DNA of 64,000 nucleotides from Halocalculus aciditolerans (GCF_014647475.1 NZ_BMPG01000002.1:124001-188000), one strand, 5' to 3'. Positions 20,621 through 52,169 are shown, counted from the stretch's first letter. Notes: a model not told the origin generated them from the letters alone. A program made the numbers and translations.

Positions 20621-20646
20621 CCGAATCACCATACGAACGAATGCAC

Positions 20647-20822
20647 GGGGCTGTGGCCAAGCCAGGCATGGCGACTGACTCCAGAGGCCACGCGCCCGGG
20701 ACGATACTCCACTGGTATACCGAGCGACGGACTGATCATCCGCTCGCGACGACGACCCTCTGGAGTTCCGAGGCGCAACCGGAGATATCAGTCGATCGGG
20801 GGTTCAAATCCCTCCGGCCCCA
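20647..20822 (+). tRNA. tRNA-Trp (anticodon CCA) with a 102-nt intron
   Basis: Acceptor arms GGGGCUG (20647-20653) and CGGCCCC (20815-20821) pair fully (one G-U), with discriminator A at 20822. The anticodon stem is ACUGA/UCAGU and the loop is CUCCAGA with anticodon CCA at 20681-20683. Exon 1 is 20647-20684 and exon 2 is 20787-20822, 74 nt after splicing. The intron sits between positions 37 and 38, as in known haloarchaeal tRNA-Trp genes. Its 3' end is the attachment site of the element that follows; the tRNA is left intact. Confidence 0.95.
20685..20786 (+). ncRNA. tRNA-Trp intron acting as box C/D guide RNA
   Basis: Haloarchaeal tRNA-Trp introns are known to guide 2'-O-methylation of C34 and U39 of their own pre-tRNA. 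Two antisense stretches are visible here. CTGGAGT (20760-20766) is complementary to the anticodon segment ACTCCAG around C34. GACTGAT (20730-20736) is complementary to ATCAGTC around U39. The length (102 nt) matches other haloarchaeal examples. The exact C and D boxes are degenerate and I do not assign them firmly. Confidence 0.8.
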
Positions 20823-20825
20823 TAC
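20810..20825. repeat. attL core in the 3' end of tRNA-Trp
   Basis: The 16 bases CCCTCCGGCCCCATAC cover the T-arm 3' strand and acceptor of the tRNA plus three bases beyond it. They recur exactly at 52154-52169. Placement at a tRNA 3' end is the standard target of archaeal tyrosine integrases. Confidence 0.85.
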
Positions 20826-25315: not shown

Positions 25316-25383
25316 TTCGGGGCGGGTCCAGGCGCAAAGTGCGAGAAACTGACCGGGATACGCGGAAGGCGGACACACGAACG

Positions 25384-25971
25384 ATGAACCTCGAACAACA
25401 CGACACGCGAGACGACATGAAGGTATGGCTGAGTATCGGCGAGGTCGAGGAACTCCTCGACGCAGCGGACTCCCAACAGAAACGCATCGCGCTCTCACTC
25501 GGAGCGCACTGCGGACTCCGCTCTCACGAGGTGCTCGACGTCGCTCCCGAACACGTCGTCGACACCGACGCCGGGCCGATGTTGAGAGTGTGGCACGGGA
25601 AGGGCGACAAGTACCGCGAGACGCCCATCCCGCGCGACCTCTTCACGACGGTCCGGACGCTCGACGAGTTCCGCGACGCACCGAGCAGCGACTCCCTTCT
25701 GAACATCACGTCGACGCGGTCGCTTCGGCGCTGGGTGGAGTCGACCGCGGAGCAGCTCGCCGACGACACTGGCGAGCGCGGATGGCGGTATCTCTCTTTC
25801 CACGATCTCCGTCGAACCTGGGCGACGAACCTCCGGTCGGCTGACGTCGACGCGATGCTCGTCTGTGACTGGGGAGGATGGAACGACCTGGAGACGTTCC
25901 TCGACCACTACAAGGGGAAACACTCCCCGGACGCGCAGAAGCGAGAACGTGGGAAAGCGGACTGGCTGTAG
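25384..25971 (+). CDS. catalytic-core-only tyrosine recombinase (SNJ2-type-like)
   Basis: About 195 aa from ATG 25384. It contains the full catalytic set: Arg in GAHCGLRSHEVLDV, Lys in GKGDKYRETPIP, the HDLRRTWATNL box (HxxR), Trp/His in CDWGGWND and the nucleophile Tyr in FLDHYKGKH. The usual N-terminal core-binding domain is missing. This compact layout recalls the integrases of temperate pleolipoviruses such as SNJ2, a comparison from memory rather than a search. It lies inside element 1, far from either att site, so it is either a resolvase or a relic of another integrated unit. Confidence 0.75.
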   Translation: MNLEQHDTRDDMKVWLSIGEVEELLDAADSQQKRIALSLGAHCGLRSHEVLDVAPEHVVDTDAGPMLRVWHGKGDKYRETPIPRDLFTTVRTLDEFRDAPSSDSLLNITSTRSLRRWVESTAEQLADDTGERGWRYLSFHDLRRTWATNLRSADVDAMLVCDWGGWNDLETFLDHYKGKHSPDAQKRERGKADWL

Positions 25972-27241: not shown

Positions 27242-27406
27242 ATGGCTTACGCAGCAGGGGAGTCGGTGGAAACCGCCGACTCGCACGGCAGTTCAGAAGC
27301 ATTGAGCGAGAGCGTCGTTGACCGCAGCATCGCGGCCGTCGTTGAGCTTCGAGATATCGCCCGTCTGGATGATGGCGTGCGCCGGCTCGTCGGGGGCTCG
27401 GCGTGA
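27242..27406 (+). CDS. small hypothetical protein
   Basis: 54 aa from ATG 27242, running to TGA 27406. Text such as SESVVDRSIAAVVELRDIAR suggests helices. First of three very short overlapping genes that lead into the membrane module. No family recognised. Confidence 0.45.
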   Translation: MAYAAGESVETADSHGSSEALSESVVDRSIAAVVELRDIARLDDGVRRLVGGSA

Positions 27407-27504
27407 CCGACCATATCGACGTCCAACAGCGCGTGAGCGAGCGTGCTGTGAAGCGGGCGAGTGAGAAGGTCGCGGCGGAGCTCGCGGCGGAGGAGGACGC
27501 GTGA
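27403..27504 (+). CDS. small helical hypothetical protein
   Basis: 33 aa from a GTG sharing GTGA with the previous stop. The sequence (DHIDVQQRVSERAVKRASEK) is amphipathic and probably one helix. Coding is inferred from the overlap pattern. Confidence 0.4.
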   Translation: MTDHIDVQQRVSERAVKRASEKVAAELAAEEDA

Positions 27505-27621
27505 ATGGCCGCAAAGTCTCGTCCGCATCAGCGTGCAGGCTTCATCCGCCAGTACGGCCGGGTGAAGGGCCGTCTGAAGGCACACGTATCCCGTCTGAAG
27601 GAGCGTGTCGGCCGTGACTGA
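27505..27621 (+). CDS. small, very basic protein
   Basis: 38 aa beginning directly after the preceding stop. Rich in Lys, Arg and His (KSRPHQRAGFIRQYGRVKGR), unlike the acidic host proteome, so it probably binds DNA or membrane lipid. Unknown function. Confidence 0.45.
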   Translation: MAAKSRPHQRAGFIRQYGRVKGRLKAHVSRLKERVGRD

Positions 27622-28027
27622 CGGCGAGGTCTCGATTCGCGAGAACGGTCAGGTAACGGTCCTCGAGACGGACGCAGTCGACGCGCCGATTCGCGTCGAA
27701 CTCGACACGGACGTGCCGGAGGTGTTCGTGCCGGCGGACACGAGAGTGTCCTACACGGGAGACGCCGAGGTCGCGACGGATGGTGGCGAGTTCGCGTCCG
27801 GACGAGCACGCGTCATCCAGTCGCGTGGGTGGACGCTCGACGAGGACGTCGCGAACATCCTCGGTCTCGCCTCGATCGTCGCGGTTGCATCGGGCGGCTA
27901 CCTGTGGGGCGGGACGTCTCAGCTCCTTGCCGGTGTTCTCCTCGTCGTACTCGGCGCGGGTGCGGCATACGTCGCGGCGAGATCGAAGTGGAGCGGGACG
28001 CGGGAGGTGGAGCCGGATGGTGAGTGA
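27614..28027 (+). CDS. membrane protein with N-terminal beta domain
   Basis: 137 aa from GTG 27614. Residues 1-75 are beta-rich and soluble (VSIRENGQVTVLETDAVDAP). Two hydrophobic helices follow (NILGLASIVAVASGGYLWG and LLAGVLLVVLGAGAAYVAA), then a basic end. It could be a matrix-side or small integral membrane protein of the particle/vesicle module. No homologue recognised. Confidence 0.6.
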   Translation: MTDGEVSIRENGQVTVLETDAVDAPIRVELDTDVPEVFVPADTRVSYTGDAEVATDGGEFASGRARVIQSRGWTLDEDVANILGLASIVAVASGGYLWGGTSQLLAGVLLVVLGAGAAYVAARSKWSGTREVEPDGE

Positions 28028-28241
28028 CGACGCTCGCCTCATCTCGGTCTCGGTCCTCCTCGGGTTCCTCTCTGTGTCGCTGACGCTTGCGTATCTCTTC
28101 GGTTCGGGACTCTTCGTGCTCGTTCCGGCGCTGGTTCTGCCAGCGTTCTTCGCGTACGCCGCGAATCTCGGCGTGCTCGTCGGTGACGTCGAAACAACTC
28201 CCGCCAGCAGCGGCGGCGAACCAATCACGGAAACCAACTAA
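28017..28241 (+). CDS. small membrane protein (two TM segments)
   Basis: 74 aa from ATG 28017 (or GTG 28020), overlapping its neighbour by 11 bp. Two hydrophobic helices (ISVSVLLGFLSVSLTLAYLF and LFVLVPALVLPAFFAYAANL) and a polar tail. Its stop shares a base with the start of the spike-like gene. Confidence 0.6.
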   Translation: MVSDDARLISVSVLLGFLSVSLTLAYLFGSGLFVLVPALVLPAFFAYAANLGVLVGDVETTPASSGGEPITETN

Positions 28242-29695
28242 TGACGAAACAGAACAACTCTCGACTTCGGCGGCTCCTCCCGGTTCTCGGCATTCTCACA
28301 ATTCTGATGGTGAGTGGTGTCGGGTCGGCGGCCGCGATGAACGCACCGCAGCAGAACAGCGCAATCAACTATTCGGAGGGGCCGAATCCGTACGTCCACG
28401 AGGACCAGCTCACCATCAACAAGCACTCGATGGGAAGCATGGACGTGCTCCAGTATTACGGCGACAACGGGAACGTGAAGTCGCTCCCGGCGACACTGAA
28501 CCAGAGTCGTCACGAATCCTTTGCGGTCCGGTACGACCGCATCAACGCGAGCGCGTACGGCGTGTTCCCGCGGAACTCGAACGCGTCGGCGATTGACGCG
28601 AGCGAGTGGGCGTCGAACTCGCCGATGACGGTCTCGCAGACGAACGGGGCGACGGCGTCGGGTGTCGACTCGATTCAGTTCGAGTCGTCGGGGACGTCCT
28701 CAACGACGACGGCGACGGCGACCTACGATAACTTCAGTGCGCTTGGTGACGCGCAGAAGCGCGTCATCTACGTCACGTACAACGTAGATTCGGCGTCGGC
28801 GGGCTCGGACATCGTGCTTCGCGTGAACGCGAAGTCGGGCGCGCACAAGGATGTCTCCCTCGCGAACACGACGGGTGACGGCTACGTGAAGCAGGTGAAG
28901 CTGAACTCGGTGACGACGCAGGGGACTGGGTCGTTCGACTACATCGAGAATCTCTCTGTCCGCGTGAGCGGTGCTGACGCGACGGGGACGATCACGGGTC
29001 TCGATGCGGAGAAGAAGACGAAGACGGTGCTCGGGAAGCACTGGAACGCGACGTCGGAGCAGTCGGAGGAGTTCTACAACGTCTCGGATGGCGGCTACCA
29101 GGACCTTACGTCGCTCTCGACGATGGGTGACGCGTTCAGTAGCGCGGAGCTCCACAAGCTCCACGTCTTCGACGTCCGTTACGAAGCGTCGCAGCTCGAC
29201 GCGTCGGACGTGAACGTGACGTGGTCCGATGCGAGTTCGTATCCGAACTACGCGAAGCTCCTCGACGACTACAACCGAATCCGCGTGCCGTCGGCGATCG
29301 CGCTCGACCACCAGGGCCTCTCCTTGATGGCGAACCAGCGCTACGTCTCCGACCGCTACCTCACGGTTCAGTACGCCTCTAACACGGGCTCGTCGGACTG
29401 GGAGAACATCTCGTCGTGGAACTCCCTCTCCGGGAAGTACACGGGGATGGGCGACAAGCACGTGCTCATCTCGGCCGTGCAGGCTGGGTCGAACATCGTC
29501 TGGCACGGGAAGATCAAGCTCACCCAGGACCAGGTGTCGGCCGCGCAGGATATCCCGCAGAACACCGGCGGCGGTGGGTCGAGTGGCCCCGTCTCCTCGG
29601 GTAGCGGGAACATCCTAATGGAGATTGTCGGCGGTCTCGGCGCGTTCGTGTCCGGGCTCTGGCTCTGGTTGAAGCGCACGGCGACGGGGGCGTGA
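28241..29695 (+). CDS. secreted, C-terminally anchored spike-like protein
   Basis: 484 aa. A signal peptide is clear: basic start MTKQNNSRLRRLL, hydrophobic core LPVLGILTILMVSGVGS and cleavage-like AAA. The ectodomain (residues ~35-430) is Ser/Thr/Asn-rich with many N-x-S/T sequons and beta-strand text. A Gly/Ser linker (GGGGSSGPVSSGSG) precedes one C-terminal TM helix (ILMEIVGGLGAFVSGLWLWL) and a short basic tail. This is the layout of pleolipovirus spike proteins, and the neighbours (small TM proteins before, P-loop ATPase after) are also alike. No sequence-level match is claimed. Confidence 0.65.
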   Translation: MTKQNNSRLRRLLPVLGILTILMVSGVGSAAAMNAPQQNSAINYSEGPNPYVHEDQLTINKHSMGSMDVLQYYGDNGNVKSLPATLNQSRHESFAVRYDRINASAYGVFPRNSNASAIDASEWASNSPMTVSQTNGATASGVDSIQFESSGTSSTTTATATYDNFSALGDAQKRVIYVTYNVDSASAGSDIVLRVNAKSGAHKDVSLANTTGDGYVKQVKLNSVTTQGTGSFDYIENLSVRVSGADATGTITGLDAEKKTKTVLGKHWNATSEQSEEFYNVSDGGYQDLTSLSTMGDAFSSAELHKLHVFDVRYEASQLDASDVNVTWSDASSYPNYAKLLDDYNRIRVPSAIALDHQGLSLMANQRYVSDRYLTVQYASNTGSSDWENISSWNSLSGKYTGMGDKHVLISAVQAGSNIVWHGKIKLTQDQVSAAQDIPQNTGGGGSSGPVSSGSGNILMEIVGGLGAFVSGLWLWLKRTATGA

Positions 29696-29701
29696 TCCTT
29701 C

Positions 29702-30145
29702 GTGACCAGAAGCATCAGTGACCAGATCGAGACGCTGAACGATATGGCGTCGATCGAGAGCGGGTCGCTGACGAACCTCGTCGCGAAGGACTTCCTCCTG
29801 CCAGTGACGACGCTCTTCGCGTCGATTTCGCTCCTCATCAGCTCCATCTTCGATATCCCCGTGCAGGTGTTCGGGGCGTTCGCAGATGGTGTGAGTCACT
29901 TCGTGGGGACCATCTTCAGCGGAGCGGCGGAGATGCTCGGTGTCGGTGCGTCGGTGTCTGCGAACAGCGTACAGTCGGGTCCGTGGGCGCAGTTCGGGCC
30001 ATTGACGTTCGCGGTGATGATCGTGGCAATCATCGCGGGCCTGTATGTCATCGCGTGGTATCGGAACCTCGAAACCACGGGGAATCTCGTCGCGTTCATC
30101 CCGTTCGACGTTCCCCTCGTTGGAAGCGAGGGTGAGGAGGAGTGA
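29702..30145 (+). CDS. tandem membrane protein A
   Basis: 147 aa from GTG 29702. Two or three hydrophobic segments: FLLPVTTLFASISLLISSIF near residues 32-51, a second amphipathic region and FGPLTFAVMIVAIIAGLYVI near 98-117. The FGPL(T/A)F start of the last helix is shared with the next two genes, and spacing of segments agrees, so the three look like a local duplication series. Possibly pore or scaffold subunits of the membrane module. Confidence 0.6.
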   Translation: MTRSISDQIETLNDMASIESGSLTNLVAKDFLLPVTTLFASISLLISSIFDIPVQVFGAFADGVSHFVGTIFSGAAEMLGVGASVSANSVQSGPWAQFGPLTFAVMIVAIIAGLYVIAWYRNLETTGNLVAFIPFDVPLVGSEGEEE

Positions 30146-30226
30146 GGGGCTCAGACGGTCCCTATCTCGGAGGTCGGTGACGTGAGCGCTCGTTACCAGT
30201 GCTGGTGCCTGGGGGTAACGCGGCAT

Positions 30227-30258
30227 GGGTAGCGACTCGCTCATGGATTCGGTCACGG
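30227..30258. repeat. 32-bp direct repeat, copy 1
   Basis: A 32-bp segment beginning GGGTAGCGACTCGCTCATGG recurs 65 bp downstream (30292-30323) with two differences. Copy 1 sits in a short frame (ATG 30225, MGSDSLMDSVTGRHP then stop). Copy 2 encodes GSDSLMDSVTDTN near the start of the next gene, so the region looks like a local duplication that replaced the N-terminus. Confidence 0.75.
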
Positions 30259-30268
30259 GGAGGCATCC

Positions 30269-30655
30269 ATGAAACTACCCGCTGAATCTCCGGGTAGCGA
30301 CTCGCTCATGGACTCCGTCACGGACACGAACGCGAAGGGATACATCACGGGCATCCGCTACGATCGGTTAGTTGCGATTCTCGTCGGCCTCGTGTCGTCG
30401 ATGTTCGCTGGCGGGCTCGCGGTGTTCATCTCGCGCGTCATGCACGCGCTCTTCATTGACTCTCTCCAGGGCGTTGCGAACTGGAGCGGTGAGATGGTGA
30501 GTCGGCTGACTAACGCTCCGTCGTGGATTGTGTCGGCGATGTGGGCCGGCATTGAGGGATTCATCAGTCAGTTCGGCCCACTGGCGTTCGGTGTCGGCAT
30601 CGGGATTGCCGTCTTGATGCTCGTCATCGTCGGCTGGGAGGTGACGCAAGCGTGA
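30269..30655 (+). CDS. tandem membrane protein B
   Basis: 128 aa from ATG 30269. TM segments near 34-52 (LVAILVGLVSSMFAGGLAVF) and 103-122 (FGPLAFGVGIGIAVLMLVIV), with an amphipathic middle. Related in plan to the genes before and after. Its first 20 codons contain copy 2 of the 32-bp repeat, so an alternative ATG at 30308 (MDSVTDTNAK) is possible. Confidence 0.6.
   Translation: MKLPAESPGSDSLMDSVTDTNAKGYITGIRYDRLVAILVGLVSSMFAGGLAVFISRVMHALFIDSLQGVANWSGEMVSRLTNAPSWIVSAMWAGIEGFISQFGPLAFGVGIGIAVLMLVIVGWEVTQA
30292..30323. repeat. 32-bp direct repeat, copy 2
   Basis: Second copy of the segment at 30227-30258 (two mismatches, both in the last 12 bases). It lies inside the 5' part of membrane protein B. 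Confidence 0.75.
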
Positions 30656-31122
30656 GTCTCCCGTTTCTCGACAGTGGCGAATCGACAGACACGACGTCGA
30701 GCGACAGCTCCACAGGTTCGAACTCCGGATCGTCACTCGGGAGTTCTGTCACGCGGTTTGTACAGAACCCGAAGGCGTGGGTGTTCGCTCGCATCAGTGA
30801 GTACATTATCGCGCTCGCGTTCGGCGTCGTGGTCGGAGTGAATCACCTCGTGACGTCGACGTGGTCGACGCTCACGTGGGTGTTCACTGAGGCAGCTGAT
30901 GCAGTGTTCAGCCCGCTCGGGGCGTTTGGAGCCGGCCTACTGTCGCTGGCGTCGGCGGCGGCGCGAGGTGTGTGGACGACAGCGCTCGACGCAGGGCCGC
31001 TCGCGATCGTCGTGTTGGTCGTGCTCTGGGTCGGGTTGATGGTGGTACTGTATCGGACGATTAGCGCGATTAGCGCGGATATTCCGGTGCTGTCGGCTAT
31101 TCGCGCGTTCATCAGGGGTTAA
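30652..31122 (+). CDS. tandem membrane protein C
   Basis: 156 aa from GTG 30652 sharing GTGA with the previous stop. A Ser/Thr-rich head (SSDSSTGSNSGSSLGSSVTR), then TM segments near 49-66 (YIIALAFGVVVGVNHLVTS), 80-100 and a last helix AGPLAIVVLVVLWVGLMVVL that parallels the FGPL helices of A and B. Confidence 0.6.
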   Translation: MSLPFLDSGESTDTTSSDSSTGSNSGSSLGSSVTRFVQNPKAWVFARISEYIIALAFGVVVGVNHLVTSTWSTLTWVFTEAADAVFSPLGAFGAGLLSLASAAARGVWTTALDAGPLAIVVLVVLWVGLMVVLYRTISAISADIPVLSAIRAFIRG

Positions 31123-31127
31123 CAGAC

Positions 31128-31397
31128 ATGATGACACTACGTGAGGCGTTCCACCATCCGGTGACAGGGATTCTGTCGATTGGTGGGACACTGGTGACGT
31201 TCGCCGTGCTCGCGAGCGGCTCGCTCTATCGAGTGAGCGCTATGCTCGCGTTCACGTTCGGAGACAAGATTCCGGCGCTGCCGGTGCATACGCTCGAACT
31301 CGCTGCGTTCGGGTTCGGCGGCATCTACCTGTCGTACAAGCTCTGGCGCTTGTGGCAGCGTTTCGAGAGGACGGCGGGGCTCGACACCGATGACTGA
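31128..31397 (+). CDS. small membrane protein (two TM segments)
   Basis: 89 aa. Hydrophobic helices ILSIGGTLVTFAVLASGSLY and HTLELAAFGFGGIYLSYKLW, with a charged C-terminus (QRFERTAGLDTDD). The stop overlaps the start of the 566-aa protein by 8 bp, indicating coupled translation. Confidence 0.6.
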   Translation: MMTLREAFHHPVTGILSIGGTLVTFAVLASGSLYRVSAMLAFTFGDKIPALPVHTLELAAFGFGGIYLSYKLWRLWQRFERTAGLDTDD

Positions 31398-33090
31398 GCG
31401 AGTTGCACGCATCGCTGTCGTGGCTGTCCTCCTGGTGGGCCTTCTCGGCCCGGGCCTCGCGATGGCTTCGGGCGGAGGGGCGAGCCCAGACAGTCACGGC
31501 TACACGCTGCAGCAGCTCCGGACGCACGGGACGCAACCGAGTGGTCGTGCGCCGTCGACGCGCTGGGTGAGTGATTACGCGAGCGTCTGGATCGACCGGC
31601 AGCCGGTGAATCCGTTGAAGCATTCGTCGTCGAATCAGTATCAGGCGGCGGAACTCCTGCAGCGTGACGACCTCGTGAAGGGGAATACGCTCCGCGTTCA
31701 CTACAGCGGTCCGCGGAACGGTGGGAAGGCCGACCTGAAGTTCCACATCGTGACGTGGGAGCCGGGTGAGACGACAGTACAGACGGCGAACGGGACGGCG
31801 ACGAAGGCGGTGCCAGTGAACGTGTCGGAGTCGACAGAGACGGTGACGTTCACGGGGAGTGGGGGCGTGAAGGAACTCTCGCTGCCAGCGTCGTACGAGT
31901 CGACGAAGCAGATGACGATGTGGCTGGAGCGCTCGCCGGATTCGGCCCGCTGGGTCTACGCGCATCACTCGTCGGCGGGGAGTCAGCCGGTATCGATTGA
32001 GACGAGCGCGGACCTCTTCGGGTGGATCGCGAAGCACATCCTCCTGTGGTCTGTCGTCGCGATACTTGCGCTCGGGGCACTCGCTCGGTACCTCCTGAAG
32101 CACGGGCTCGCGAGCCCGCAGTGGGGGTACTTCCCGTACGCACTCTTCGGCGGGCTCGGTGGCTTCGTCATCGTGTGGACGTCGTGGTCGGGCCTCGCGT
32201 CGCTCTGGCAGAGTGCGCCGTGGGTGGTCGTCTGGCTCATCGGTTTCGTCGGCTTCGTGCAGCAAATCGAAGGCTACGACGACGCCCTCGAGACGTGGGA
32301 TTTCGTGCAGAGACGGCTCACGGACGCCGTGAGTCCGACTGGCGAGGAGATCCGGAACTCGCACGGCTTCAGCCGGAAGACGCACTCGGTGAAGCGCACG
32401 GATGACGGGCCGATTATCGTGCCGCCGGGCTGGTCGAAGTTCCTGGCGCGCGTCTTCGGCGGTGCGGCGTTCGTCGAGAACTTCGACGAGGTCCGGACGA
32501 CGCTCGACGGCGACCCGGACTCAGACGCGGACAAGGAGGTCATCATCGACGAGGACGCCGAGCACGTCCTCGACTACACGCCGGAGCACTGGGGCTGGAA
32601 GGGCTGTACAAGCCTGCGCCCGGTGACGGATGGCTCCGAGGGCGACAACCTCCCGGCCTCCCAAGATCGTGCGCTCGACCTATCGAAGGTCGGGGTAACG
32701 GTGTTCACAGCGGTCGCAGGTGGCGTGCTGCAGGCGTTCGCGATGGGGCTCAGCTGGCTGACGGTGCTTGCTGTCCTCGTCGGTGTCCTCGTCGTGCAGG
32801 CGGAAGCGAAGGACGGACATGCACGTATCGTGCCGGCTGACGTCCACAAACGCGCGGCGATGGAGACGGCACTGACGGCCGCAGACGGCTACGAGCGCGC
32901 GGAGACGTTCGACGAACAGCAGAAGGCCCGCATCCGCGACCGGAAGAACCCGACGCGGGAGGCGTTCGGTCTGATGGACTCGTTCAACGTGGAGCTCGGC
33001 GGGTTCATGAACGAGATGTGGGGCGAAGGCGGCGACTCGGAGCGCCGTCGTGACCGCCAGGATGACGAGGAGGTGCCGGCCGGTGACTGA
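31390..33090 (+). CDS. large multi-domain membrane protein with signal peptide
   Basis: 566 aa. A signal peptide (RVARIAVVAVLLVGLLGPGL, cleavage near AMASG) leads an extracellular beta-rich domain to about residue 210. Three or four TM helices follow (HILLWSVVAILALGALARYL, YALFGGLGGFVIVWTSW, WVVVWLIGFVGFVQQI). Then comes a cytoplasmic domain of ~120 residues and two more hydrophobic helices near 435-475 (VTVFTAVAGGVLQAFAMGLS, LAVLVGVLVVQAEA), and a charged tail. It could link an external spike complex to the ATPase encoded two genes later. No family recognised. Confidence 0.65.
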   Translation: MTERVARIAVVAVLLVGLLGPGLAMASGGGASPDSHGYTLQQLRTHGTQPSGRAPSTRWVSDYASVWIDRQPVNPLKHSSSNQYQAAELLQRDDLVKGNTLRVHYSGPRNGGKADLKFHIVTWEPGETTVQTANGTATKAVPVNVSESTETVTFTGSGGVKELSLPASYESTKQMTMWLERSPDSARWVYAHHSSAGSQPVSIETSADLFGWIAKHILLWSVVAILALGALARYLLKHGLASPQWGYFPYALFGGLGGFVIVWTSWSGLASLWQSAPWVVVWLIGFVGFVQQIEGYDDALETWDFVQRRLTDAVSPTGEEIRNSHGFSRKTHSVKRTDDGPIIVPPGWSKFLARVFGGAAFVENFDEVRTTLDGDPDSDADKEVIIDEDAEHVLDYTPEHWGWKGCTSLRPVTDGSEGDNLPASQDRALDLSKVGVTVFTAVAGGVLQAFAMGLSWLTVLAVLVGVLVVQAEAKDGHARIVPADVHKRAAMETALTAADGYERAETFDEQQKARIRDRKNPTREAFGLMDSFNVELGGFMNEMWGEGGDSERRRDRQDDEEVPAGD

Positions 33091-33916
33091 TCGTCCCCGC
33101 TACCAGGGGCGGTACGACGACGAGTCTCCGGCCGGCTACCGACACATGGAGCATCGGCCGGCGCTCGACGAGCTGAAGCGCGACCATCTCGACCTCCTCT
33201 CGGAGACCCGCCGGGGGTTCTACGACCGGCGTGAGGTCGTGATGTGGTTGGAGCGCGTGAGCGTGCGGACGTTCGGCCTGCTCCCGTCGGGGTTCTTCGA
33301 GTGGATCGGCGGCTCGCCCTCGCTGACGGCGATCTTCATCAACGACGCGGAGCGTCGGAACGCGATGGTGCAAACGGACGAACCGTTCCCCGAGGAGAAC
33401 GCGCGAGCGCTCCGCGACTGGTTCGTCGAGTCGTGGATCGACCCGGCGTGCGCGGACGCGTTCCGGTATCTCGCGGAAGACGCGACCGAGTACAACGCCG
33501 AGGACGCAGAGGCTCCGGACCCGGACGAGCAGGGTGCGGTGGCGATGCGGCCGGTGCTTGCGGACTTCGAGGACCAACAGACGGCGGCGCTCCGTGACCT
33601 CCTCGATGGCGAGATGTCGTCACAGGACGTCGTGTCGTGGGTTGCGGAGACTCGGGAGGCGACGGACCGTCTGCTGCCACGCGAGTACCTGACGGTCTGC
33701 CGGCGTCATCCGACGCTGTCGACGGCGCTGGGTGGTGGGCGCGAGTGGTTCCACCTGCGCGCGCAGCTTGCTGTCTCGGGCGTCTCGGTCGGCGAGGCAA
33801 AGTTCCCGAGTCTGCTGCGGCTGATGAACGAGGCGACACGGGAGGTCGCACAGCTCTCGAACGAAGGGGTAGAACTGGCGGAGACCCCCGACCAAACTCC
33901 GCTCTCTTGGAACTGA
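33083..33916 (+). CDS. soluble hypothetical protein of the membrane module
   Basis: 277 aa from GTG 33083, overlapping the previous stop by 8 bp; GGTGCCGGCCG precedes it. Acidic and mainly helical (HLDLLSETRRGFYDRREVVM, then PSLLRLMNEATREVAQLSNE). No TM, cysteine pairs or P-loop. Position between the large membrane protein and the ATPase, with overlaps on both sides, suggests a cytoplasmic adaptor. Confidence 0.6.
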   Translation: MTDRPRYQGRYDDESPAGYRHMEHRPALDELKRDHLDLLSETRRGFYDRREVVMWLERVSVRTFGLLPSGFFEWIGGSPSLTAIFINDAERRNAMVQTDEPFPEENARALRDWFVESWIDPACADAFRYLAEDATEYNAEDAEAPDPDEQGAVAMRPVLADFEDQQTAALRDLLDGEMSSQDVVSWVAETREATDRLLPREYLTVCRRHPTLSTALGGGREWFHLRAQLAVSGVSVGEAKFPSLLRLMNEATREVAQLSNEGVELAETPDQTPLSWN

Positions 33917-35292
33917 TGAGTACGTACTCCATGAACGCGAAGGCGGCGTCGGTGAGCGAGCTGCGAGAGCAGATCGCGGAGACGTTCGCCTCGCATACGA
34001 CTTCGGCACAGGCTACCGGCGACTTCGGGAACGGCCGGCACAACGATGGCGAGAACATCTACAAGGACTTCTCGCTGCCGCCGCTCCACCGCTATCTCCA
34101 CAAGGCGGAGAAGCATGGGAAGGCGGTTGCGACGCATCCGGGGTCGTTCGTGAACGCGGTGACGCACGTGACGGGCCGCGATCTCGACTACCTCGGCTAC
34201 GTGGCCGACGACGTTGAGTATCGGCCGGAGGACCCGGACCCGCATCCGGCGTTCGAGGACGAGCCGCGACTCCGCGGGAAGCTCTTGGAGTGGCTCGCGG
34301 CGGACGATCGCCGCTGGGGGTCGCTCTCGGATTCCGGGACGGACCTACAGATGCACGGCGAGCCCGGCTCGGGGAAGTCGACGTTCGGACAGTTCCTCGC
34401 GACGATTCTGACGCAGGCGAACAACGAAACGGTGCTGTGGGCAGACACGATGGACGAGTCCGGTGTGAGTGAGCGGACGGAGTGGCTGTCGCTCGCGCCG
34501 TGGATCACTGTCGCGCTCCCGGACGGGCTGCCTGTGGAGGTTCGGGTGACGCCGACGGACCCGAGTCTCTCGCCGTTCACGATCGACCTCACGGACCTCG
34601 TTCGCGACGTCGTGCGCTACAAGAGCCCACGCGACCTGAACAAGAAGCTCACACCGGGCCAGATCTACGTCGTCTACCCGGACCCGCTATTCCGCGGCTG
34701 CAACGAGGTCTCCCGCTTCGACTACCACGCGCCGGGCGACGTGACGCCGGACGGCGAGGACGGGCCGAACTCCTCGACACCGGTAAATCAGTGGTGGTTC
34801 GCGTACATGGCGGCACGAATCACGCACAACGACTTCGTCCACTTCACGAGTCTCCTCCTCGACGAGGCGGGGAATCTGTTGGACCCGGACGCGGAGAAGG
34901 ACGATCATCAGTCCTACCAGAAGGTGAAGTGGTTCGCGGAGAAGTTCGCGGACGCGCGGAAGAACGGCGTGACGGTCGTGACGATGACGCACGCGCTCAG
35001 TGAGCTGCATCCGAAGTACCGGAAGAAGCAGCGGTGGTGGGCGACGCTCGCGGGGAACTCGCCGCCGGTCGGGAAGAAGCTCCCGGGCGAGAAGCGCTGT
35101 CCCTTGGAGACAGACTTGACGTCGCGGATGCCGACGGGGCAGGGCGTCGTCTGGTCGACGAACAAGTTCGCGCCAATTGCGTGGCCGAACATGAAGTCTC
35201 GGCGGCGGGTGGATGCGAAGTTCGAGCTTGTCTTCCCGACGGTGAGCCGGAATAGCGTCCACCTGAGTTCGGAGTCGGAGGTGAGTGCGTAA
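33916..35292 (+). CDS. P-loop ATPase of the membrane module
   Basis: 458 aa from ATG 33916. Walker A MHGEPGSGKSTFG at residues ~148-160 and Walker B TSLLLDEAGNLLD near 310, then a sensor-like VTVVTMTHALSELHP. The preceding DTMDESGVSERTEWL and following GQGVVWSTNKFAPIAWPN fit an AAA+/HerA-FtsK-like fold. Pleolipoviruses and related haloarchaeal plasmids encode a comparable ATPase downstream of the spike gene. Likely drives assembly, DNA loading or secretion at the membrane; which one is unknown. Confidence 0.7.
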   Translation: MSTYSMNAKAASVSELREQIAETFASHTTSAQATGDFGNGRHNDGENIYKDFSLPPLHRYLHKAEKHGKAVATHPGSFVNAVTHVTGRDLDYLGYVADDVEYRPEDPDPHPAFEDEPRLRGKLLEWLAADDRRWGSLSDSGTDLQMHGEPGSGKSTFGQFLATILTQANNETVLWADTMDESGVSERTEWLSLAPWITVALPDGLPVEVRVTPTDPSLSPFTIDLTDLVRDVVRYKSPRDLNKKLTPGQIYVVYPDPLFRGCNEVSRFDYHAPGDVTPDGEDGPNSSTPVNQWWFAYMAARITHNDFVHFTSLLLDEAGNLLDPDAEKDDHQSYQKVKWFAEKFADARKNGVTVVTMTHALSELHPKYRKKQRWWATLAGNSPPVGKKLPGEKRCPLETDLTSRMPTGQGVVWSTNKFAPIAWPNMKSRRRVDAKFELVFPTVSRNSVHLSSESEVSA

Positions 35293-35451
35293 ATGCGCTC
35301 GAAAAAGAAAAGAAGACGCGTCGAGGTGTACGAATTCACCGTTTTCTACTTGCGGCGGCAGCGGCGGCGGTCGCGCTCGCCGATCTTCACGGCTCCACGC
35401 ACGCGCGATATAGAATCGACTGGGACGACCCCCCGGGGGGTGTCTGAATGA
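35293..35451 (+). CDS. 52-aa basic leader-like protein
   Basis: Starts directly after the ATPase stop (ATG 35293) and its TGA overlaps the ATG of the 1123-aa protein. Extremely basic: MRSKKKRRRVEVYEFTVFYL then RRQRRRSRS. It may bind nucleic acid, or act mainly as a translated leader opening the downstream ribosome site, since a strong palindrome (35428-35441) covers that site. Confidence 0.5.
   Translation: MRSKKKRRRVEVYEFTVFYLRRQRRRSRSPIFTAPRTRDIESTGTTPRGVSE
35428..35441. promoter_or_regulatory. perfect palindrome covering the ribosome-binding site
   Basis: ACCCCCCGGGGGGT ends 6 bp before the ATG at 35448. Its right half, GGGGGGTGTC, is the only Shine-Dalgarno-like sequence for the large gene. 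A local hairpin would hide it, so translation may depend on ribosomes finishing the 52-aa leader. Confidence 0.5.
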
Positions 35452-38400
35452 AGTCGCGCGCACGGGTGTTGTTCGTGCTCGCGCTCGTCGCGATGAGCGC
35501 GATCGGGACGCCCGCGATGGCGTCAAGTTCGCCGACGAATACGGTGTCGTGGAACGGCACGGTCCATCTCCAGGGCTCGCCAGCGAGTGACGGCACGCAG
35601 TACACGTACTCACTGCGGTCGGCGGATAACGTCTCGGACTTCCACGTGAACGTAACCGGGAACCGTCAGACACAACGCGACCACGAGACGGCGATGCTCG
35701 GCAACGACGACTCGATGCCGCTCTCGGTGTCGGGGAACGCGCCGATACAGACTCCGCAGGTGGCGCTGACGGGTGTCGAGACAACGTCGAGCGGGTCGTG
35801 GAGTGGGACGGCATCCCCGAGTGCGTCGACGACGAAGACGGTCGGCGGCAACGCCAACGCGACAGACGAATCCGTGACGTGGACGGGCCAGCGGTCGACG
35901 TCGTCGGCGTCGAAGTCGGCTTCGGTTGTCTCAACGGGCTCAACGTCCTGGACGCTCGGCGGCAACCAGCAACCTGAGAACGGAGAAGTGAGGTTCACAG
36001 GTTCGTCAACCACGGGCGCGTCACGGTCGACGAGCGGAACCGGCGATGGGAGCGTGACCATCCAAGGCGACGCGGAGACTGCCTCGTCGAGCGTCACACT
36101 CGCTCCACGGACCGCAGTCGGAGCGACCGATTCGAGGAGTGGAACCCTTAACTCTGACACATCATTTGCAGTGTCAGTTGAGGGTAACCTTGCTCCGGTT
36201 GGTCCGGACGGGTCCAATAACCCCACAGTCGAGGTTACAGGACAGCTTGCCACAAACTACTTCGGTTCATCTACTGATCAAAGAGCGACAGACACGAATC
36301 CATTATCCACAGTGAGTAAAGTTGAGGCGTGTTGGCACAATAATTACAACTACCAAACAAATAATATTGAAGTCTATGCAGACGGTGTGGAGATTGCGAA
36401 CTCGTCGACCTCTATGTCGGGGAGCGGAGAGACTGAATGTAAAATCATAGACACTGACGACACAACAGGAGTTAGCAACCTCACTGTGCGCACTCCGGGT
36501 TCATACATCTACGCTGATGGGATGACGCAATACTCTATGTCTCCTACAGATGTGAGTGTCTCGTCGGGCGGTCAAACTCTCTCGTTTAGTTCTCTATCCG
36601 ACGGAGAAGCACAGACGCAGTCGCTCGACCTCGTAGATGGACAACAGGATGTGAGTTTCTCGTGGAATCGTGGCGAGCTTGCCTACGAGATGCGATGGTC
36701 GCCGCGGACACAGACGGAGGGCGCGTCCCTCTCAGTGGACGGGGAGACGGTGTCGCAGTCGGGACAGCTCTCCTCGTCGACGACGCGGTCACTCTCCTCG
36801 CTCTCTGAGGGCTCGCACTCCGTGACGACGTCGTCGTCGACCGGACCGAAGCCGAGTTGGACCATCGACTACGACGAGACCCTTCACACGCACAACCCGA
36901 GCGTGACGGTTGGTGGGTCGACCGCCAGCTACTCGGGTGTGCTGGGACCGGGAGAAACGGCGACGCGAACGCTTTCCGGGCTCTCGGCGGGGAGCAACAC
37001 ACTTGACTGGGGGCTCGGAAGTGGCGCGCCGTACGACGCAGACGTATCGGCGACGGAGATCACGCAGACTGAGAACCCGTCACTGTCAGTGGACGGCACG
37101 ACGGTTGCCAGCTACAACGGTATCCTCGCCCCCGGCGAGAACGTGACGCGGTCATTCTCCGGCCTCTCGACGGGGTCGCACTCGGTCTCGACCTCGGCGA
37201 GCGGTGGCGTCGATTACGTAGCATCGTGGACGGAGCACACGGTGACAGACTCCCCATCGGTCGACGTCGACGGTGACGGTGTCGGCGACGTCTCCTACTC
37301 CGGCACGCTGTCGGACGGTGAGACCATCACTAAGTCGGTCCCCGAGCTGTCTCGCTCCTCGACGACCGCGGACGTGTCGGCGTCGTCGGGCTCGACGGTC
37401 GCGCTCAACGTCTCCTACACGGAGGTGACTGACACGCCGAGTGGGACGGTCGAGGTGAACGGCCATAATGCGTCGTTCACGACTCTATCGGATGGGCAGA
37501 CGCAGTCGCTATCGGTTGACCCGGCGTGGCTGTCGACGGGGACGAACCGAGTGAACGTCTCGCTCGACACGAGTACGCTGTCGGCGGATGCGCCGAGTCC
37601 GGCAGTTGGCTTCGACTACTCGCATTCGGCTATTGACGACCAAGTGGTGCAGTACACGGGCCAGCAGTGGTCAGAGTCGTACAACGTGACGAAGACGTTC
37701 GGGACGGCGCAGCAGAGCGCGAACCTCACGATTCCGTTCGCCGGCGACGTTGTAGGCATGCGGCGGCTCCAATCGCGCTCTGACGGGAACTCCTACTCGT
37801 CGATGTCGTCGTCGTCGAGTTACGAGCTGCACAACACGACGCTGCAGGTGGATCTCGGCGACGTGCAGGAGAACGAGACGGTGAACGTCGTCGCGAACGG
37901 CTCGAAGGTGCGCGTGAACAACGGGAGCATCCAGGTGCTTCATCCGTCGCCGGTCGGCCAGCAGTTACACACAGAGTTCCGCGTTGAGTCGCGCTCGCCG
38001 GGGTTCTACATCGACGTGTCGGGGACGCCGCGCGGCGGCTACCTCCATCAGTTCTCGGCGGAGTCGTGGAAGAATCCGGCGGAGTACTCGCGCTTCGCGA
38101 GCGCGGGGTCATCGCAGAAACTCTACCTGCCGAATGCGCCGGCGGGCGCGACGGCGAACGTTTCGACGACGAACGTGATGGTTGACCCGGAGCGCGAGGT
38201 CGACGTACAGGTTGTCGAGGGCGGCTCGACGCCGATCTTGAACGTGACGCAGGGGCCGAGTGGCCCGGGGAAGGTGACGTACACGCTGACGAACGCGGAG
38301 TCCGGGACGGACTACTGGCTCTACAGTCGCGCGAAGCAGCTCATCCGCGACCAGGCGACGGCGGCGTCGACGGTCGCGCTCCACGCGAGTAATGGGCCGG

Positions 38401-38819
38401 ACCTTCTCGAAATCAAGCCGGCTCCGGAGAACTCGTCGGGGCCGTCGAGCACCGGCGGGTCGACTCTGGGGAGCGGGGTGACAGGGCCGATCTCCGATGG
38501 TGGTGGGCCGCTGTCGAGTCCGGTGTTCGTCATCGGTGTGGGCTTCCTCGCGCTCGCGCTGGTATACGTGGCGCTGCGGCAGACGCACGCGAAGCGTCGG
38601 ACGGTCTGGCTAGGGACGGGCGGCGCGGCGGTCGTCTACGTCGCGGTCGTCGCCATCATGGTCGCGCCGGGCGCGCTCCTGCAGCCGATAGGGCAGAACA
38701 TCGGGAAGATCGCGCCGATTGTCGCGCTCGCGCTCGTCGCGGGCGGGCTCTACTTCGTCTACCAGAAGTGGGTGAAGGGCTCCGGACCGCGGCCAATCGT
38801 CGTTCGGGGTGGGAAGTGA
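35448..38819 (+). CDS. giant secreted repeat protein with C-terminal membrane anchors
   Basis: 1123 aa. A signal peptide (RARVLFVLALVAMSAIGTPA, cleavage near AMAS) leads to a Ser/Thr-rich stalk. Residues ~400-720 hold repeated ~55-aa beta modules with recurring LGPGETATRTLSGLSAGSN / LAPGENVTRSFSGLSTGSH / LSDGETITKSVPELS phrases. Residues ~235-385 form a distinct segment with cysteines (VEACWHNNYNYQTNNIEVYA) in visibly A/T-rich DNA. The C-terminus has three hydrophobic helices (VFVIGVGFLALALVYVAL, VVYVAVVAIMVAPGALL, IVALALVAGGLYFVYQ). Likely an adhesin or receptor-binding fibre on the particle or cell surface. Confidence 0.65.
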   Translation: MKSRARVLFVLALVAMSAIGTPAMASSSPTNTVSWNGTVHLQGSPASDGTQYTYSLRSADNVSDFHVNVTGNRQTQRDHETAMLGNDDSMPLSVSGNAPIQTPQVALTGVETTSSGSWSGTASPSASTTKTVGGNANATDESVTWTGQRSTSSASKSASVVSTGSTSWTLGGNQQPENGEVRFTGSSTTGASRSTSGTGDGSVTIQGDAETASSSVTLAPRTAVGATDSRSGTLNSDTSFAVSVEGNLAPVGPDGSNNPTVEVTGQLATNYFGSSTDQRATDTNPLSTVSKVEACWHNNYNYQTNNIEVYADGVEIANSSTSMSGSGETECKIIDTDDTTGVSNLTVRTPGSYIYADGMTQYSMSPTDVSVSSGGQTLSFSSLSDGEAQTQSLDLVDGQQDVSFSWNRGELAYEMRWSPRTQTEGASLSVDGETVSQSGQLSSSTTRSLSSLSEGSHSVTTSSSTGPKPSWTIDYDETLHTHNPSVTVGGSTASYSGVLGPGETATRTLSGLSAGSNTLDWGLGSGAPYDADVSATEITQTENPSLSVDGTTVASYNGILAPGENVTRSFSGLSTGSHSVSTSASGGVDYVASWTEHTVTDSPSVDVDGDGVGDVSYSGTLSDGETITKSVPELSRSSTTADVSASSGSTVALNVSYTEVTDTPSGTVEVNGHNASFTTLSDGQTQSLSVDPAWLSTGTNRVNVSLDTSTLSADAPSPAVGFDYSHSAIDDQVVQYTGQQWSESYNVTKTFGTAQQSANLTIPFAGDVVGMRRLQSRSDGNSYSSMSSSSSYELHNTTLQVDLGDVQENETVNVVANGSKVRVNNGSIQVLHPSPVGQQLHTEFRVESRSPGFYIDVSGTPRGGYLHQFSAESWKNPAEYSRFASAGSSQKLYLPNAPAGATANVSTTNVMVDPEREVDVQVVEGGSTPILNVTQGPSGPGKVTYTLTNAESGTDYWLYSRAKQLIRDQATAASTVALHASNGPDLLEIKPAPENSSGPSSTGGSTLGSGVTGPISDGGGPLSSPVFVIGVGFLALALVYVALRQTHAKRRTVWLGTGGAAVVYVAVVAIMVAPGALLQPIGQNIGKIAPIVALALVAGGLYFVYQKWVKGSGPRPIVVRGGK

Positions 38820-39097
38820 TGCTGCGGCGCATCGTTTCGCTCCTCGCGAAGGGCGGCTTCCTCGTCGCGTTGAAGGGGCGCTGGGTGCCGCTGAAGCTCC
38901 TCGCGAAGTTCGCGGGCGTGATTCAGACACTCGCGGTCGTTGTCGCGGTGCTCTTTCGGCCGTACCTCCTCTTCCTGGGTGGGGCGGTCGGCGTCGTCTG
39001 GGGGCTCCACTATCTCGGGGTGCTGCCGGTGGTGGACTTCTCGCCGCTCACGGCGCTCGCTGAGAGCCTCCTGCGGTCGGCGAGGGTGATGGCGTAA
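38819..39097 (+). CDS. small membrane protein
   Basis: 92 aa, one-base overlaps with both neighbours. A basic amphipathic start (LRRIVSLLAKGGFLVALKGR) is followed by two hydrophobic segments (VIQTLAVVVAVLFRPYLLFL, GGAVGVVWGLHYLGVL). Unknown role. Confidence 0.6.
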   Translation: MLRRIVSLLAKGGFLVALKGRWVPLKLLAKFAGVIQTLAVVVAVLFRPYLLFLGGAVGVVWGLHYLGVLPVVDFSPLTALAESLLRSARVMA

Positions 39098-39300
39098 TGT
39101 TCGGCGTCTTCGGTCGTGCGCGGGACGTGGCGGGCTGGCGCGGCGTCGTGGCAGCGTTCGGCGTGCTGACGGGTGTGAAGGTCGCACTGGTAGGGATGGC
39201 GTCGCGTGCGGCGCTCGACGCGATTCCGCTCGTCCTCGTTGGTGCCGCGGGCATCTTCCTCTGGCTCGCGGTTCGCGGTGCTGGGGATGAGTCGGCGTGA
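39097..39300 (+). CDS. small membrane protein
   Basis: 67 aa; MFGVFGRARDVAGWRGVVAA then two hydrophobic stretches (FGVLTGVKVALVGMA, IPLVLVGAAGIFLWLAV). Shares its MFG start and general plan with the next gene. Confidence 0.55.
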   Translation: MFGVFGRARDVAGWRGVVAAFGVLTGVKVALVGMASRAALDAIPLVLVGAAGIFLWLAVRGAGDESA

Positions 39301-39308
39301 AGGCGTGA

Positions 39309-39500
39309 ATGTTCGGCGCGACGGCCCTCAGGACAGCTGTCGGTACGGCGGTATCAGTCGAGGCGCGGATGACGCTCGCCAGGGTACTCCGAATCAAGTC
39401 GGTTCGAACTAGCGTGAAGGTCGCGGCGCTCGTACTCGTAGCGGTTGTGATCTGGCTGTGGATGGAACTATCGTTCTCGCTCTTGGGAAGTAGAATCTGA
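39309..39500 (+). CDS. small membrane protein, end of the module
   Basis: 63 aa from ATG 39309, with one C-terminal hydrophobic helix (VKVAALVLVAVVIWLWMELS) after a basic region. Last gene of the rightward membrane module; DNA composition turns A/T-rich immediately after it. Confidence 0.5.
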   Translation: MFGATALRTAVGTAVSVEARMTLARVLRIKSVRTSVKVAALVLVAVVIWLWMELSFSLLGSRI

Positions 39501-39557: not shown

Positions 39558-40007
39558 CTACTTCGATGGATATCGAGGGTCAAGTTCTGCTTCCAGTACG
39601 TTCTCGATTTTCCGCCTTCGGCTTCGATCCTGTATCTCGATGTATTTCACCTTCACACGGTCCCAAATATTCCCATCTCTACCTTTTTCTGTTCCTTGGT
39701 AGATATTAATCTCATCGTCGCGTTCTACGAGTCCAAGAAGTTGACTTCCGTCTGTTCGACGGAAGTGATCACTGACTCGGCGAATTAATTTGTTCGTCTG
39801 GCCAACGTAGAGGAGTTCTCCTGTCTTCCGGTCATATAGACCGTAGACAACCGGCAGATTCGCTTTCTCCCCTTCCTGCAAGCGAAACTCTCGAATGAGG
39901 CGAAGGTCTTCATCATTTAAGTCATCACCATACTCTTCAGCTGTTTCGTCTGAGAGAAAATCGTCGAGAGACACGATGAATTCGTGTTGGAAGTCTCTCC
40001 TATTCAA
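39558..40007 (-). CDS. GIY-YIG nuclease-domain protein
   Basis: 149 aa, start TTG at 40005-40007 in the longest frame. Residues ~55-148 carry the GIY-YIG fold: VVYGLYDRKTGELLYVGQTN (GIY and YVG halves), the conserved Arg in LIRRVSDHF and a late Glu in ENVLEAELDP. GIY-YIG domains cut DNA in homing, repair and restriction proteins. It is alone on the minus strand at the edge of the A/T-rich cargo region, and its start is preceded by one of three related ATGTACAT operators. Possibly a defence or homing nuclease. Confidence 0.75.
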   Translation of the reverse strand: MNRRDFQHEFIVSLDDFLSDETAEEYGDDLNDEDLRLIREFRLQEGEKANLPVVYGLYDRKTGELLYVGQTNKLIRRVSDHFRRTDGSQLLGLVERDDEINIYQGTEKGRDGNIWDRVKVKYIEIQDRSRRRKIENVLEAELDPRYPSK

Positions 40008-40011
40008 CCGC

Positions 40012-40028
40012 GTACACTATGTACATAA
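40012..40028. promoter_or_regulatory. ATGTACAT operator 1 (GIY-YIG gene)
   Basis: GTACACTATGTACATAA, 5 bp upstream of the GIY-YIG start. The palindromic core ATGTACAT and the flanking CACT recur at 40681-40697 and 43409-43425, always upstream of a leftward gene. Confidence 0.55.
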
Positions 40029-40101
40029 GATGAACTTGACTCGTGAGTCATCAGACAGGGAGCCCAAACAGGTATGAAACTGAGATACGATAGATAGAGT
40101 G

Positions 40102-40434: not shown

Positions 40435-40458
40435 CTCTCCACAACGCCAGCTCATAGT

Positions 40459-40668: not shown

Positions 40669-40680
40669 AATTCAGTTAGT

Positions 40681-42244: not shown

Positions 42245-42248
42245 GTCC

Positions 42249-50468: not shown

Positions 50469-51040
50469 TGATCGTGGCTACCCAACAAACCGGCGACCAC
50501 GTCATTGGGCCAACGCCGCGACAGACGCAGGGCTACGCGTCACTGCGCACGAAGCCGACAACGCAGCTGACGGACACGCGCGTCGATTCTGGCGGTGGTT
50601 ACGAGCGCTGGCGCTCCACGGAGTGGCGTCCACACACGGCGCGGCAGGGCAAGGAGGACATCTACCTCTACCACCATCGGCTGCTCGCCGTCGTTGCGTG
50701 CTACGACGTCGACGACCCTATTGAGGACGTGCTGGCGGACCTCGCGGGTCGCGACGTCCACCACGAGTCGGGCGTCGAGTGGGACAACCGGCCGTCGAAT
50801 CTGACGGTGATGGATCACGGCCGGCACTCGGAGACGACGCAGGCGCAGCGCCGCGCGTGGGCTGCCGACACGAAGCGCGACGTCGAGACCGCGAGCGAAC
50901 CCGAGACCGACGAATCGGTCTGCGTGGCGTGCGGCGAGCCCGCGGAGACGCCGTGCCGGAGCGAGGGCTTCGACGGAGTTCGTTGTCTCGGGTGTGCGAT
51001 GCGCGACGCCGGTGACCACTCCATCGAGGTGGGAGCGTGA
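50468..51040 (+). CDS. HNH endonuclease-like protein with zinc knuckles
   Basis: 190 aa. Core VHHESGVEWDNRPSNLTVMD then HGRHSETT is an HNH nuclease motif (HH, N, H). The C-terminus has a separate four-cysteine pattern CVACGEPAETPC and VRCLGC. HNH proteins next to replication or packaging genes nick or cut DNA. It lies between PCNA and the integrase, so DNA processing on excision or replication is plausible. Confidence 0.7.
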   Translation: MIVATQQTGDHVIGPTPRQTQGYASLRTKPTTQLTDTRVDSGGGYERWRSTEWRPHTARQGKEDIYLYHHRLLAVVACYDVDDPIEDVLADLAGRDVHHESGVEWDNRPSNLTVMDHGRHSETTQAQRRAWAADTKRDVETASEPETDESVCVACGEPAETPCRSEGFDGVRCLGCAMRDAGDHSIEVGA

Positions 51041-52104
51041 GTGAGTCGACGACAAGCCGGCCACCGCGCGACATCACGCCGGCGAAGGCGGTTGACCGAT
51101 TCATCGCGAAGCGACGGAACAAGAACACGGAGAAGACGGTTCGGAGCTACGAGCAGCGGCTTCGACAGTTCGTCCGTTGGTGCGACGAACGCGACGAGAT
51201 CGAGACGATGCGCGACCTTGACGGGTGGCTCATCGACGAGTACGAACGATTCCTCGACGAGCGGGGCGACGCCCCGAGTACGGTGAAGGGGAAGATGGTC
51301 TCGCTAAAGGAACTCGTCAAGTACTGCGTGCAGCTCGACGTCGTGTCTACGGATCTTCCCGACCGAGTCGAAATCCCGAGACTCTCGAATGATGAGGAGA
51401 CCGACGACCAGCAGTTAGAACCTGAAGACGCGCGCCGCCTCATCGAACACTATCGCGAGAGTAAGCGCGACTACGGAACGGTTCAGCACGTTCTACTTGA
51501 GCTTCTCTGGCACGTTGGGTGTCGAACCGGCTGCGTGCGGTCGCTCGACCTTCGCGACTGGCACCCAGAGGAACGGAAGATTACGTTCCGCCACCGGCCA
51601 CCGACGCGGCTGAAGGACGGCACGAAGCACGAGCGGAACGTGGCTGTTCCGAAGCCAATCGCGGACGCGTTGAAATTCTACATCGCCCGCGAGCGTCCCG
51701 ATAAACGAGACGAAAACGGCCGTGAGCCACTCTTCGCGACGCGGTACGGTCGGCCGGCGGAGTCGACGATTCAGACGTGGGGCTATCAGGCAACCCAGCC
51801 GTGTGTTGCTGTTGCGTGTCCGCACAACCGTCAGCGAGATCGCTGCGAGTACACGCAGAAGTCACACGCTTCGAAATGTCCGTCGAGTCGCCCGCCACAC
51901 GCTATTCGAACAGGCTCGATTACGTGGCAGTTGAATCGCGGCCTGAGTTACGTCCGTGTCGCGCAGCGCGTCGCGGCGTCGCCGGAGACGATCCGGCGCT
52001 ACTACGACAAGGCCGATCTTGACGACGAACTCGCGCGGCGGCGGCCGGAGACAGAGGACTTGGACATCATGACTGACAGCGAAGAGGAAGACGATGACGA
52101 GTAA
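51037..52104 (+). CDS. int: tyrosine integrase of element 1
   Basis: 355 aa from GTG 51037 (GTGA overlap). An N-terminal core-binding domain (NTEKTVRSYEQRLRQFVRWC) is followed by the catalytic domain: Arg in WHVGCRTGCVRSLDL, Lys near TRLKDGTKHERNVAVPK, HxxR in RPPHAIRTGSITWQLN and Tyr in SPETIRRYYDKADL. A cysteine/histidine insert (CVAVACPHNRQRDRCEY) sits before the HxxR box. The gene ends 49 bp before the right att copy, so this is the enzyme expected to recombine at tRNA-Trp. Confidence 0.85.
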   Translation: MSESTTSRPPRDITPAKAVDRFIAKRRNKNTEKTVRSYEQRLRQFVRWCDERDEIETMRDLDGWLIDEYERFLDERGDAPSTVKGKMVSLKELVKYCVQLDVVSTDLPDRVEIPRLSNDEETDDQQLEPEDARRLIEHYRESKRDYGTVQHVLLELLWHVGCRTGCVRSLDLRDWHPEERKITFRHRPPTRLKDGTKHERNVAVPKPIADALKFYIARERPDKRDENGREPLFATRYGRPAESTIQTWGYQATQPCVAVACPHNRQRDRCEYTQKSHASKCPSSRPPHAIRTGSITWQLNRGLSYVRVAQRVAASPETIRRYYDKADLDDELARRRPETEDLDIMTDSEEEDDDE

Positions 52105-52153: not shown

Positions 52154-52169
52154 CCCTCCGGCCCCATAC
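52154..52169. repeat. attR of element 1 / attL of element 2
   Basis: Exact second copy of CCCTCCGGCCCCATAC. Only the last part of the tRNA is duplicated. What follows is not a host flank but the left end of another element, so this copy is probably a shared junction. Confidence 0.8.

Follow-up and report, generated by a model that had tools for sequence, protein, structure and literature searches.

Gene 8 of the Thermococcus plasmid pTN2 corresponds to ORF375, an ATPase gene of the lemon-shaped virus PAV1 (Krupovic et al. 2013, PMC3543421), and the DUF7845 (Rep-Arvir) initiator is common to PAV1, LSV-48N and the betapleolipoviruses (PMC13107129). Plasmids for which no particle is known, such as pTN2, are also among the carriers of the PAV1-type ATPase and DUF7845 (PMC3543421, PMC13107129). 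Two anchored, glycan-binding (lectin-domain) surface proteins are part of the core in all families of Thermococcales spindle-shaped viruses (PMC12934983). LSV-48N, a lemon-shaped Haloferax virus reported in 2025, has a genome of 24 kb (PRJNA1072013) that occurs in circular and integrated form; it encodes a DUF7845 initiator and two integrases, but no capsid protein can be recognised in it (PMC12714723, PMC13107129). Among vesicle-forming plasmids, an eight-strand beta domain has been described in ORF23 of pR1SE (PMC10818511).

The window analysed here is a stretch of 64,000 nucleotides from Halocalculus aciditolerans (GCF_014647475.1, NZ_BMPG01000002.1:124001-188000). The original prediction had singled out positions 27242-39500 as a module of about 18 contiguous genes, with a 484-aa protein, a 566-aa protein, an ATPase and a 1123-aa anchored fibre in one run. 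Reading the window sequence confirmed these products on the same strand (Table 1), although our recount of the interval gave about 14 genes, of which the outer ones (27605, 28026, 38768, 39097 and 39309) have few or no relatives. As called by Kyte-Doolittle hydrophobicity alone, with no signal-peptide predictor, the 484-aa, 566-aa and 1123-aa proteins have hydrophobic N-termini, in agreement with the three signal-peptide proteins expected, together with C-terminal or internal membrane segments; sm1, sm2 and sm3 have two or three hydrophobic helices each, and the 277-aa protein and the ATPase have no membrane segment. The idea that nearly all products are membrane or exported thus holds for seven of the nine core genes, the other two products being soluble. 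Likewise, the proposed trio of related small membrane proteins was borne out for sm1 and sm2, which are clear paralogues (hhalign 99%, E ~1e-19), but the likeness of sm3 to them is confined to its last membrane helix (hhalign 90%, E 1.6e-6), and there is a fourth, unrelated one. Searches of Pfam, PHROGs and NCBIfam gave no profile match for any core protein except the ATPase, and no capsid protein was recognised among the block products in profile comparisons that included SSV1 VP3 and His1. Spindle-shaped viruses (PAV1-like, fuselloviruses, His1) have a small two-helix major capsid protein; sm1-sm4 gave no profile match to SSV1 VP3 or to the His1 membrane proteins, including His1 ORF21.

Table 1. 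Features of the element and its conserved block, in window coordinates.
Feature	Position	Strand	Remarks
tRNA-Trp gene with intron	20642..20822	+	3' end is the integration site (left att); read from sequence
Left attachment repeat CCCTCCGGCCCCATAC	20810..20825	+	16 bp, tRNA-Trp 3' end
210-aa tyrosine recombinase (second integrase)	25339..25971	+	PF00589, E 1.2e-14
140-aa membrane protein	27605..28027	+	present in few relatives only
Conserved core, nine genes	28241-38819	+	
484-aa surface protein (spike)	28241..29695	+	hydrophobic N-terminus, all-beta ectodomain 40-440, C-terminal membrane helix
sm1, 147-aa two-helix membrane protein	29702..30145	+	40 orthologous loci; paralogue of sm2
sm2, 128-aa two-helix membrane protein	30269..30655	+	profile comparison
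sm3, 156-aa membrane protein	30652..31122	+	distant likeness to sm1/sm2
sm4, 89-aa membrane protein	31128..31397	+	conserved; unrelated to sm1-3
566-aa core membrane protein	31390..33090	+	hydrophobic N-terminus, 8-strand beta domain ~57-192, several membrane helices, helical C-terminus
277-aa soluble protein	33083..33916	+	one-base overlap with ATPase gene
458-aa P-loop ATPase	33916..35292	+	pTN2 gene 8 / PAV1 ORF375 family (phrog_22963)
1123-aa anchored fibre-like protein	35448..38819	+	hydrophobic N-terminus, C-terminal membrane helices
355-aa tyrosine integrase	51037..52104	+	orthologue beside att in 8/8 delimited elements
Right attachment repeat CCCTCCGGCCCCATAC	52154..52169	+	16 bp, just behind 355-aa integrase gene

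To place the block in a wider frame, we used 392 genomes of Halobacteriales, the order of the window's organism. Homologues of the ATPase were found in 61 of them, about one in six and nearly always with the block, and homologues of the 566-aa protein in 55, all within those 61; a profile search raised the latter count by two further ATPase carriers, G017 and G068. Both frames are open, with no stops, in all genomes listed, and no more than a few kilobases separate the two genes at the loci read. Across 20-kb stretches from 20 genomes and 25 named contigs, the gene order is spike, sm1, sm2, sm3, sm4, 566-aa protein, 277-aa protein and ATPase, usually followed by the fibre, and iterated profiles recovered the small membrane proteins at about 40 loci. 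The block is therefore kept together in other haloarchaeal genomes far beyond chance, which supports the original prediction of an undescribed membrane/export module with an ATPase. Named carriers of the block belong to Haloarcula (among them Haloarcula rara and Haloarcula mannanilytica), Halorubrum (Halorubrum tebenquichense), Haladaptatus, Halovivax, Natronomonas and other genera, with plasmid-borne forms in Halosegnis marinus (together with MCM and DNA polymerase B) and on Haloarcula marismortui pNG300. In a sample of the phylum, the 566-aa protein occurred in 14 genomes, every one of them of this same order, and IMG/VR gave no relative in two peptide-pattern scans with the ATPase, nor did phage records. 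The genome of the window's organism contains a second, diverged copy of the block on another contig (G000:C10:9584-13211; L086), with its own integrase homologue, of 228 aa, upstream.

The real unit is larger than the interval first proposed: an element of about 31 kb (20810-52169) in the tRNA-Trp gene, with the integrase inside its right end. ARAGORN in bacterial mode misses this intron-containing tRNA gene; a second copy of its full 20-23 bp 3' end was not found, the shorter 16-bp repeat being present. In seven relatives, the block lies beside genes for tRNA Val, Lys, Pro (twice), Met and Trp (twice), with a direct repeat 25-36 kb away; the repeats span 16-42 nt except in G377 and G166, where, at 13 and 14 bp, they carry little weight by themselves. 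An orthologous integrase of ~350 aa lies directly inside the repeat in all eight elements, and such an integrase beside the att, with direct repeats at a tRNA 3' end, is the anatomy of a tRNA-integrating element. The spike, the 566-aa and 277-aa proteins and the ATPase are likewise encoded in all eight, the fibre in at least six, and a DUF7845 protein and an Orc1/Cdc6-like protein in five each. Genes related to the 210-aa recombinase occur upstream of the block in several relatives. Since the element moves among many tRNA sites and genera and keeps its membrane, surface and motor proteins, the block most likely serves the element's own transfer.

By profile comparison, the ATPase belongs to the pTN2 / PAV1 ORF375 family: it aligns with pTN2 gene 8 over 295 columns (hhalign 100%, E 6e-39) and matches PHROG 22963, of which pTN2 gene 8 is a member at E 9.5e-181. 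The DUF7845 initiator of the haloarchaeal elements is a further link to PAV1 (ORF375 cassette, ORF528). Conversely, pTN2, with which the sequence comparison was made, has no protein with a profile match to the 566-aa, 277-aa, spike or sm proteins. Among the H. marismortui plasmids pNG100-pNG400, pNG300 compares best, with orthologues of sm1, the 566-aa protein, the 277-aa protein and the ATPase in order; it differs in an extra AAA ATPase gene between the last two and in that spike and fibre were not recognised, and the ATPases of the pNG plasmids are only 26-28% identical. The model of the spike is all-beta (pLDDT 81, pTM 0.77), with local matches, none global, to carbohydrate-binding modules (CBM11, TMt 0.58) and to the turret of Haloferax tailed virus 1 (HFTV1), so that part of the modelled protein is carbohydrate-binding-module-like, a fold like that of glycan binders. 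The 566-aa model, of moderate quality (pLDDT 72, pTM 0.54), places an eight-strand beta domain ahead of the first internal helix. Sequence profile searches of the PDB with these two proteins returned nothing. The block encodes two anchored surface proteins, of which the 484-aa one is in part carbohydrate-binding-module-like, and this pair, with an ATPase and often a replication initiator in common with PAV1, argues for a membrane particle. We consider it probable, at roughly 0.55, that the Halobacteriales elements are an integrative, provirus-like family and that the block, as their transfer (particle) module, makes such a particle.

Pleolipoviruses and the pR1SE vesicle plasmids had been suggested as kin, and their layouts are alike: Pleolipoviridae have a spike, small membrane proteins, a protein of ~270 aa and a P-loop ATPase in similar order, and pR1SE-like elements (apHPVs) have conserved membrane-protein clusters with an ATPase and a membrane protein with an N-terminal 8-strand beta domain. 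However, against pleolipovirus families built from 11-12 viruses, the spike scored 2.4% (hhalign) with VP4/VP5-type spikes, and the 566-aa and 277-aa proteins at most 4.5% with ORF6/ORF7; a 53% match of the spike to ORF6 was confined to the signal-peptide region, and a 94% match of the ATPase to VP8 covered only 60 columns around Walker B. No pleolipovirus spike appeared in the top 50 PDB or viral fold matches of the spike model, and the top viral match of the 566-aa model, a pleolipovirus protein of 185 aa, was not significant (E 2e-3, TM 0.13). Nor did the block match anything, beyond signal peptides, among the 23 proteins of pHTUR05, taken as pR1SE-like by its S8 protease and gene layout as in PMC10818511, or among 25 ORF23 homologues (apHPV cluster 1/2 core: ORF6-9, 17, 21, 23-25); the 566-aa protein has no detectable homology to pR1SE-type ORF23 despite the eight-strand beta domain, and the S8 protease of the apHPVs was not found in the block by Pfam search. 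The haloarchaeal element is also three times larger than pleolipoviruses, with another core set, and is mostly integrated, unlike the plasmid-borne apHPVs. Both kinships are rejected as homology, and it is highly improbable that the block is a pleolipovirus or pR1SE-like plasmid-vesicle element. It is less far-fetched, if still unlikely, that the block is the particle module of LSV-48N and its proviruses, here in other genera. By its description, LSV-48N shares with this element family the integrative and circular lifestyle, a similar size, DUF7845 and the want of a known capsid, and with the window element the two integrases, and two of three Haloferax-type genomes carry a DUF7845 gene near the block. 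Of five LSV-48N CRISPR spacers taken from PMC12714723, one matched a site beside DUF7845 and integrase genes (G378:C1:1200193) at 35/38 positions, whereas the surrounding 40 kb are without the block, which lies elsewhere in that genome and matches 0/5 spacers. Because two further spacers had no match across 15 genomes of the genus, presumably Haloferax, this locus is only tentatively LSV-48N-like; IMG/VR scans with the spacers gave nothing. These spacer results argue mildly against membership of the block in the LSV-48N family.

A machine for contact-dependent DNA transfer or secretion would use the same parts differently, with the 566-aa protein and sm1-4 as an ATPase-powered channel and the surface proteins as adhesins gripping a neighbouring cell. 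The combination of a polytopic membrane protein, a soluble partner and an ATPase fits this design, as does the integrative setting, and the ATPase has a weak Zot-like signal that falls short of the Pfam cut-off (PF05707, E 0.004). Analogous proposals have been made for pT26-2 elements (PMC6972569). On the other hand, the block proteins contain no VirB4, VirD4, relaxase, pilin or VirB6 domain by Pfam, PHROGs and NCBIfam, the ATPase is not of HerA/FtsK type by Pfam, and two large, variable, putatively glycan-binding surface proteins suit a free particle at least as well. As no capsid family is recognised, the same ATPase occurs on plasmids and no particle has been seen, we still allow a contact machine a small share of the probability. 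A remnant, decayed or domesticated for a host function such as adhesion, secretion or competition, would be consistent with the chromosomal location, the lack of any particle record and incomplete copies such as the Haloarcula sp. GH36 plasmid, whose ATPase has no annotated block neighbours. We judge it improbable indeed, given the stop-free frames; the varied tRNA sites, clean att repeats and plasmid-borne copies indicate recent mobility. Sequence alone does not decide between a particle, a DNA vesicle and a contact machine, but the element's mobility and its links with PAV1 speak for a particle.

For the particle-making element that we prefer, the genes suggest the following course. The integrase would excise the element from the tRNA gene, after which it would circularise and replicate, in many relatives by means of the DUF7845 rolling-circle initiator and/or the Orc1/Cdc6-like protein. 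Within the cell membrane, sm1-sm4 and the 566-aa protein may build a particle or budding site, to which the 277-aa protein would link the cytoplasmic ATPase, and the ATPase may power assembly or the loading of DNA. What leaves the cell, presumably without lysis, would be a membrane particle, lemon-shaped or pleomorphic, whose 484-aa and 1123-aa anchored surface proteins could bind S-layer glycans of the next host. More tentatively, and at somewhat less than even odds, the elements may constitute a family, spread over at least 23 genus-level groups of Halobacteriales, of vesicle formers or of enveloped or lemon-shaped viruses, with a PAV1/pTN2-type ATPase and with coat and surface proteins unrelated to known virus or secretion families. 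Such a family would join the membrane-particle elements of haloarchaea and Thermococcales. If it makes particles, the block would be among the commonest particle-making systems of hypersaline archaea, and PAV1-type membrane-virus machinery would then reach beyond hyperthermophiles to halophiles; a contact machine would be a new archaeal transfer system.

Two further features lie inside the element. One, at 39558-47730, is a low-GC island, likely restriction or defence cargo: it encodes a cytosine DNA methyltransferase at 40796-42244, what may be its partner nuclease at 42249-43358, and a GIY-YIG-like nuclease. The other is a PCNA-like sliding clamp (49680-50468; phrog_947 E 4e-12, PF00705), whose gene has an HNH-like gene and that of the integrase as neighbours. 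At C2:195160, 19 kb beyond the right att, the tRNA-Trp 3' region recurs in a longer copy; together with the 16-bp repeat at 52154-52169, it indicates that the block is in one element and that a second follows in tandem. This second element, at the same tRNA-Trp site, runs from window 52154-64000 to C2:195160 (~window 71160) and is probably another provirus. It has its own integrase (L134:6062-7087), tail-fibre-like repeats at 62840-63901 and, at 59063-59890, an ATPase with a match to the terminase-like phrog_2666 (E 1.8e-28). Right after the tandem elements, genes that by eye look like CRISPR-Cas type I-B (Cas6, Cas8, Cas7-like) were seen at L134:7480-11493 (C2 ~195480-199500). In G166 (L076, L173), ~200 bases around the spike gene start occur twice in the joined stretch (3693-3888 and 24053-24248), the duplicate lying close to the att repeat at a distance of ~20 kb, perhaps reflecting surface-gene switching or a second partial element.
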